Shown piece after piece: positions 3,648-4,587 of a stretch of 32,460 nt of DNA (its first letter is position 1; each line of letters begins with the position of its first letter). Origin of the DNA: Desulfuromonas sp. (GTDB taxonomy: Bacteria > Desulfobacterota > Desulfuromonadia > Desulfuromonadales > Desulfuromonadaceae); assembly GCA_028685815.1 (NCBI GenBank), contig JAQUDG010000016.1, positions 1 through 32,460 of the forward strand, written 5' to 3'. The notes beneath the pieces were generated by a model. The model did no database searches, had not been told where the DNA came from, and saw nothing but the letters and a program-made list of their open reading frames with translations. A program made the position numbers and the translations under genes.

Positions 3648-3665
3648 AAAAGACGCTTGTAGAGC

Positions 3666-3694
3666 TTGACGTTCGTCACAAGCGTGGGTATAAT
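3666..3694 (+). promoter_or_regulatory. sigma70-type promoter, TTGACG-17 bp-TATAAT
   Basis: -35 TTGACG (3666-3671), 17-bp spacer, -10 TATAAT (3689-3694), upstream of greA. Confidence 0.75.
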
Positions 3695-3721
3695 TCTTAC
3701 CCTTAGATTAGGAAAATAGAA

Positions 3722-3789
3722 GCGTTTTTGGGGAATTAAGCGAGGTACACTCGAAGTAATTATGTCCTGAGCACTTCATGCAAAAACGC
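3722..3789 (+). ncRNA. candidate structured leader RNA closed by a 9-bp stem
   Basis: GCGTTTTTG (3722-3730) is the exact reverse complement of CAAAAACGC (3781-3789). Nested pairs AATTA 3734-3738/TAATT 3757-3761 and CGAG 3741-3744/CTCG 3750-3753. Confidence 0.45.
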
Positions 3790-3822
3790 CAACGTTAGCA
3801 TATAAAATTGGACTGAAGAGTT

Positions 3823-3859
3823 AAAGTTACGGGTGGGCCATGAGCCTGCCCGTAACTTT
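3823..3859 (+). terminator. strong hairpin in the greA leader (terminator or expression-platform candidate)
   Basis: AAAGTTACGGGTGGGC-CATGA-GCCTGCCCGTAACTTT: 16-bp stem with two G-U pairs, then an imperfect U-rich stretch (ATTGCTTTAAT). Confidence 0.55.
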
Positions 3860-3901
3860 ATTGCTTTAATACACAAAATAGAGAAAATAAAGGAATTTGC
3901 C

Positions 3902-4378
3902 ATGTCAGACTCAATTCCCATGACCCCTGTGTCGTACGATAAACTCCGCCAGGAACTGAAGCAGCGTATGCGCGTTGATCGCCCCAAGGTGGTGGAGGAT
4001 ATCGCCGAAGCCAGATCACATGGCGATCTGTCAGAAAATGCCGAGTACGATGCTGCCAAGGATCGGCAGGGGTATATTGAAGCCCGCATCAAGGATCTCA
4101 ACGATAAAATTGCGCGCGCTGAAGTGATTGACCCCACAAAGATTGAATCGGACAAAATTGTTTTTGGGGCCACTGTCACTCTGTATGATGTGGATAACGA
4201 GACAGAGGTGGTGTATCAGATTGTTGGAGAGGATGAGGCTGACATCAAAGAGGCAAAAATTTCTGTTACTTCTCCTGTTGGCAGAGCCCTTATTGGCCAT
4301 GTCGTAGATGATGAAGTTCGAATTAAAGTGCCCGCCGGGCTCAAAGTGTATGAAGTTACTGATATCGAGTATAAATAA
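3902..4378 (+). CDS. greA: transcription elongation factor GreA
   Basis: EDIAEARSHGDLSENAEYDAAKDRQG and ISVTSPVGRALIGHVVDDEV are GreA signatures. Start placed at ATG 3902 (MSDSIPMTP) after AAAGGAAT. Confidence 0.96.
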   Translation: MSDSIPMTPVSYDKLRQELKQRMRVDRPKVVEDIAEARSHGDLSENAEYDAAKDRQGYIEARIKDLNDKIARAEVIDPTKIESDKIVFGATVTLYDVDNETEVVYQIVGEDEADIKEAKISVTSPVGRALIGHVVDDEVRIKVPAGLKVYEVTDIEYK

Positions 4379-4587
4379 TGAGTATGCCACGTATAGATTT
4401 AAACACTAAAATGGTTGATATCCTTCGTCTCTATCCCGAGGCTCAAGTAGTGCTTGGCGAGTTTGGCCTGCATTGTTCGAGTTGCTCTGGGGCTAAACAT
4501 GAGTCGCTGCGCCACGGGGCTATAAATCATGGGCTTGATCCAGAAGAACTGCTTGCCCGTCTGATCGCTCTGACAGAGCACCCCTGA
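4378..4587 (+). CDS. DUF1858-like small protein with CSSC motif
   Basis: IDLNTKMVDILRLYPEAQVVLGEFGLHCSSCSGAKHESL resembles DUF1858 proteins. The start codon overlaps the greA stop (TAATG). Confidence 0.8.
   Translation: MSMPRIDLNTKMVDILRLYPEAQVVLGEFGLHCSSCSGAKHESLRHGAINHGLDPEELLARLIALTEHP

Follow-up and report, generated by a model that had tools for sequence, protein, structure and literature searches.

In E. coli, a terminator in the greA leader (GraL) stops about two-thirds of the transcripts, and catalytically active GreA lowers greA expression through this leader; the leader terminator is needed for the GreA effect, which was not reproduced in vitro (PMC6829880). Attenuators of greA have been predicted from Proteobacteria to Clostridia, and the figure models of Naville and Gautheret (2010) cover enterobacteria and bacilli, with a clear antiterminator reported in each; the main text of that paper contains none of the terms 'Geobacter', 'delta-proteobacteria', and 'deltaproteobacteria' (PMC2965389). 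Our literature search found no greA transcript data for Geobacter-type bacteria or the organisms considered here. The present analysis started from a 32,460-nt stretch of Desulfuromonas sp. (contig JAQUDG010000016.1, referred to as the window), and the greA leader found there and in all examined relatives of the order Desulfuromonadales is a lineage-wide addition to the known greA-leader attenuators. We consider it likely that this leader functions as an intrinsic-terminator transcription attenuator.

The initial annotation had likened the leader to GraL, and the comparison is apt in layout and position: a promoter, a short leader, and an intrinsic-terminator hairpin with a T-run make up the greA 5' UTR in both. 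The GreA protein of the window is 51% identical to that of E. coli over 155 residues, and its GDLxENAEY tip retains the catalytic D and E. The stem and leader sequences are different. In E. coli, greA has dacB and yhbY as neighbours and is served by two overlapping promoters, whereas the Desulfuromonadales loci have one recognisable promoter, usually inside carB, and either carB or pyrC upstream. Only in E. coli have feedback by GreA and an action in trans been demonstrated.

The genes of the window are ordered pyrR (from approximately 804), pyrB, pyrC, greA, a small gene (4378-4587) that resembles DUF1858 as judged by eye, and recG. The host genome comprises 2.6 Mb in 166 contigs, and no second copy of the greA leader was found in it. 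A GreA search supplied the relatives, which belong to the same genus, family, and order. The features of the leader are listed in Table 1.

Table 1. Features of the greA leader and gene in the window.
Feature	Positions	Strand	Basis or remark
Probable relic of the carB 3' end, holding the promoter hexamers	3665..3706	+	reads LDVRHKRGYNSYP*; frame comparison with G001 LDVSPLQAYNMASN
Sigma70-type greA promoter: TTGACG (3666-3671), 17-nt spacer, TATAAT (3689-3694)	3666..3694	+	
5' leader part holding the junction-like domain; without conserved structure	3701..3821	+	
5' arm of the 9-bp complementarity (partner 3781-3789)	3722..3730	+	not conserved
3' arm of the 9-bp complementarity	3781..3789	+	
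17-bp terminator-like hairpin TAAAGTTACGGGTGGGC-CATGA-GCCTGCCCGTAACTTTA	3822..3860	+	fold, conservation, covariation
T-rich tail TTGCTTTAAT, an interrupted U-tract	3861..3870	+	
AAGGA, likely ribosome-binding site of greA	3890..3894	+	sequence
greA (GreA, 158 aa)	3902..4378	+	Pfam PF03449 and PF01272

A TTGACG-17-TATAAT promoter about 200 nt before the greA start had been claimed in the initial annotation, and both the promoter, whose hexamers match the consensus at 11 of 12 positions, and its distance from the ATG were borne out. All 55 order genomes read have a TTGAC-type -35 and a TA-rich -10 at the equivalent position. In 50 of these, carB lies directly upstream of greA and the promoter falls within the last carB codons, inside the C-terminus of the LDV..LQEYY type. 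The Leu codon holding the -35 was CTT in 50/50 carB-upstream genomes, which are related and do not represent 50 independent events, while CTT accounted for 11.6% of the Leu codons in the carB stretches read; the sister order mostly used CTG at this codon.

In the window, carB is missing upstream of greA. The short reading frame across the window promoter is probably the degraded end of carB, with the promoter hexamers preserved in it, as suggested by its short similarity to the frame of the sister species G001. The promoter and hairpin were also retained in genus g4 (L124, L127, and L131), where a gene other than carB is upstream, and in G054 (L119), where the promoter is located beyond the carB stop. 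Because promoter and hairpin persist without carB (the window and g4) or past the carB stop (G054), the module belongs to greA. The host carB was found on another contig, away from greA (G000:C7:3816-7016, L143), and its C-terminus, ending in ...EVRSLQEYHKNIL, differs from the LDV..LQEYY type found in the order relatives read; its origin may possibly be the replacement of the resident gene by a foreign carB. A perfect 8-bp inverted repeat (ACGCTTGT / ACAAGCGT at 3653-3660 / 3678-3685) flanks the greA -35 hexamer and was not seen in G001; it is possibly an operator or a leftover of rearrangement.

An intrinsic-terminator-like hairpin with a T-tract lies between the promoter and the greA start in the window. 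A 16-bp hairpin at 3823-3859 had been described earlier; the hairpin is present, and its stem is slightly longer than claimed (17 bp at 3822-3860). Its pairs had probabilities of 0.80-1.00. The whole leader folded with z = -4.0, none of 200 shuffles being as stable, and this stability is due to the hairpin, as the 5' part alone (3705-3800) gave z = -0.5 with 58/200 shuffles as stable. The interrupted U-tract suggests incomplete termination in the window, where termination may be weak; many relatives have longer, uninterrupted T-runs.

A G+C-rich hairpin was identified in 55/55 order genomes read, its end lying 19-92 nt upstream of the greA ATG (median 30), with predicted energies of -14 to -28 kcal/mol. 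Under a uniform terminator rule (at least 7 consecutive pairs, at least 5 G-C, and a T-rich tail), 54/55 loci passed; the shuffles yielded 0.17, and a control stretch taken at -420 to -300 in these loci gave 0/55. The core GGGCGGG/CCCGCCC occurs in most lineages of the order, and the leader hairpin of a Geoalkalibacter record (L032) closely matches those of family f15, a resemblance that points to the Desulfuromonadales as the order concerned.

Compensatory changes were scored in a MAFFT alignment of 48 hairpins. Stem cells were paired in 81%, compared with 39-50% when the partner was slid by 1-3 columns, 90 compensated cells were observed versus 40 +/- 4 in shuffles, and the covariation score was 0.345 versus 0.168 +/- 0.012; these cells count sequences and not independent events, the stretches were cut around the hairpin, and the figures serve as supporting evidence and not as probabilities. 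The covariation points to selection for pairing in the hairpin. A covariance model with a search for compensatory changes in relatives had been proposed as a check of the stem, and on both counts the hairpin proved conserved. The model matched the window, whose sequence was in the training set, at 3816-3878 (E 7.3e-5) as the sole match in the host genome. When it was run on 22 order genomes held out of model building, 17 had a match directly upstream of greA that was the best in its genome, although for most of these 17 the check covered the hairpin match only. The same promoter and hairpin were recognised by eye in the remaining five, four of which are from one genus in which the stem occurs in G-C, G-U, and A-U versions, changing from CAGTGGGCGG/CCGCCCACTG to CAGTGGACGG/CCGTCCACTG by way of a G-U intermediate.

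The promoter, the hairpin, the T-rich tail, and their order-wide conservation with covariation thus strongly support the earlier claim of a greA leader with a terminator-like hairpin behind a strong promoter. In the proposed mechanism, RNA polymerase would start at TTGACG-17-TATAAT, make a short leader, and then run into the intrinsic terminator, whose hairpin lies a few dozen bases ahead of greA. The hairpin probably aborts many greA transcripts: part of the polymerases would end transcription at this point, releasing a short RNA of the GraL kind (predicted at approximately 170 nt in the window and a median of approximately 80 nt in the relatives), and the rest would read through into greA and perhaps into the small gene behind it and recG. 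We infer that termination occurs and is partial. The stopped fraction would probably set the amount of GreA and, by analogy with E. coli, might be altered by GreA itself in a feedback or by another factor. We think it rather doubtful, though worth stating, that the hairpin does more than terminate, with its order-wide conserved core sequence being recognised by GreA-bound polymerase or another factor, or with the released RNA acting in trans, as an equivalent of the E. coli GreA/GraL loop that is embedded in carB. A covarying, lineage-wide module with very different leaders offers a natural set of variants with which the important part of the hairpin, in the control of greA by its own product, could be sought. 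The conservation suggests that early stopping of many greA transcripts is a widespread way to set GreA dosage.

The attenuators of Naville and Gautheret (PMC2965389) share with these loci a premature terminator upstream of greA and differ in their antiterminator. Across the 55 leaders, pairing of the upstream leader with the 5' arm of the terminator showed no excess and was lower than in shuffled leaders (0.45 observed versus 0.53 shuffled), and 16/55 leaders were above their own shuffles. The analysis detected neither an antiterminator nor a conserved sensor, and the attenuator may work at a fixed read-through ratio and not be regulated.

The initial annotation had also seen a junction-like domain in the 5' part of the leader, a 9-bp closing stem with nested short stems, in a layout that it compared with riboswitches and attenuators. 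In a riboswitch, this domain would bind a ligand and switch the downstream terminator. The nested short stems are present in the sequence, and the 9-bp complementarity is indeed perfect and precedes a terminator-like hairpin, and a perfect stem of at least 9 bp arose in only 4/300 shuffles of the region, which is uncommon by chance. However, the stem is not the preferred fold: it was missing from the minimum-energy fold of 3705-3800, and its pairing probability was approximately 0.09 when the domain was folded alone and 0.01 within the full leader, against the background of the unremarkable stability of this part given above. It also failed the proposed check for conservation in relatives, as it was seen in no other genome read. 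The domain is absent even from G001, despite a nearly identical terminator hairpin there; G001 has only 55 nt from the predicted start to the hairpin and a different short hairpin in that interval. The interval is approximately 121 nt in the window versus 27-79 nt in all other order genomes read. The general layout of leader and terminator is like that of the riboswitches and attenuators of Rfam 15, but no Rfam 15 family matched the window at the gathering threshold, and a search of the leader at E <= 10 gave nothing beyond a chance-level PtaRNA1 match. Together with the lack of excess antiterminator pairing, these results make a ligand-binding switch highly improbable. The junction domain is probably not real as a structure, and the 5' domain is best seen as species-specific sequence.

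Two other explanations concern the hairpin itself. It might simply terminate the upstream operon (carB or pyrC) and lie in the greA leader incidentally, given that carB is directly upstream in most relatives, that read-through transcripts also meet the hairpin, and that a related hairpin occurs in the sister order where the carB-embedded promoter is mostly missing. We regard this as unlikely, since the greA promoter is upstream of the hairpin, and a greA transcript starting there must pass it, and since the hairpin is kept where carB is gone, in the window and in genus g4. Its closeness to the ribosome-binding site, its long stable stem, and the interruption of the U-tract in the window could alternatively indicate a structure at the end of the greA mRNA, acting in stability, RNase processing, or translation control and not in termination. 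Such a role is similarly improbable: nearly all relatives (54/55) have a T-rich tail behind the stem, a feature that neither stability nor translation control would require, and the hairpin does not overlap the ribosome-binding site.

As a separate observation, the 5' region from promoter to terminator is well folded (z < -2) in 13 of the 55 greA leaders, including L003, L019, L020, L024, L026, L028, L031, L117, and L122; the window gave z = -0.4 in this survey. A structured 5' domain was rejected as a conserved feature, as the 13 sequences look unrelated between lineages.

In 20 genomes of the sister order (Geobacterales-like), the covariance model had no match at greA, 4/20 passed the uniform terminator rule, and visual inspection revealed a related GGGGCGGCC...GGCTGCCCC hairpin in several others, for the most part with no embedded promoter. 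The carB-embedded -35 was mostly missing there, and with 4/20 passing, the module is not universal in the class. Terminator-like hairpins before greA also occur among 77 loci from more distant bacteria, chiefly beta- and gammaproteobacteria, of which 17 passed the terminator rule versus 0.7 expected.

The core pattern GGGCGGG-N3-6-CCCGCCC was also counted genome-wide and was present in 0-6 copies in most genomes and in 11, 26, and 89 copies in G032, G007, and G009, respectively. It was rejected as a genome-wide repeat; the listed G007 and G009 copies mostly share GGGCGGGACGGTGCCCGCCC, unlike the greA hairpin. The 26 and 89 copies of these two genomes, mostly with GGGCGGGACGGTGCCCGCCC or its complement, are possibly a dispersed repeat element.

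Elsewhere in the window, a PyrR-binding-site-like attenuator was noted upstream of pyrR (563-741), which matched Rfam RF00515 with 35.5 bits (E 0.0017), below the gathering score of 54 bits. This pyrR leader has a terminator-like stem at 724-741, which is followed by TTTTTTGCAT.
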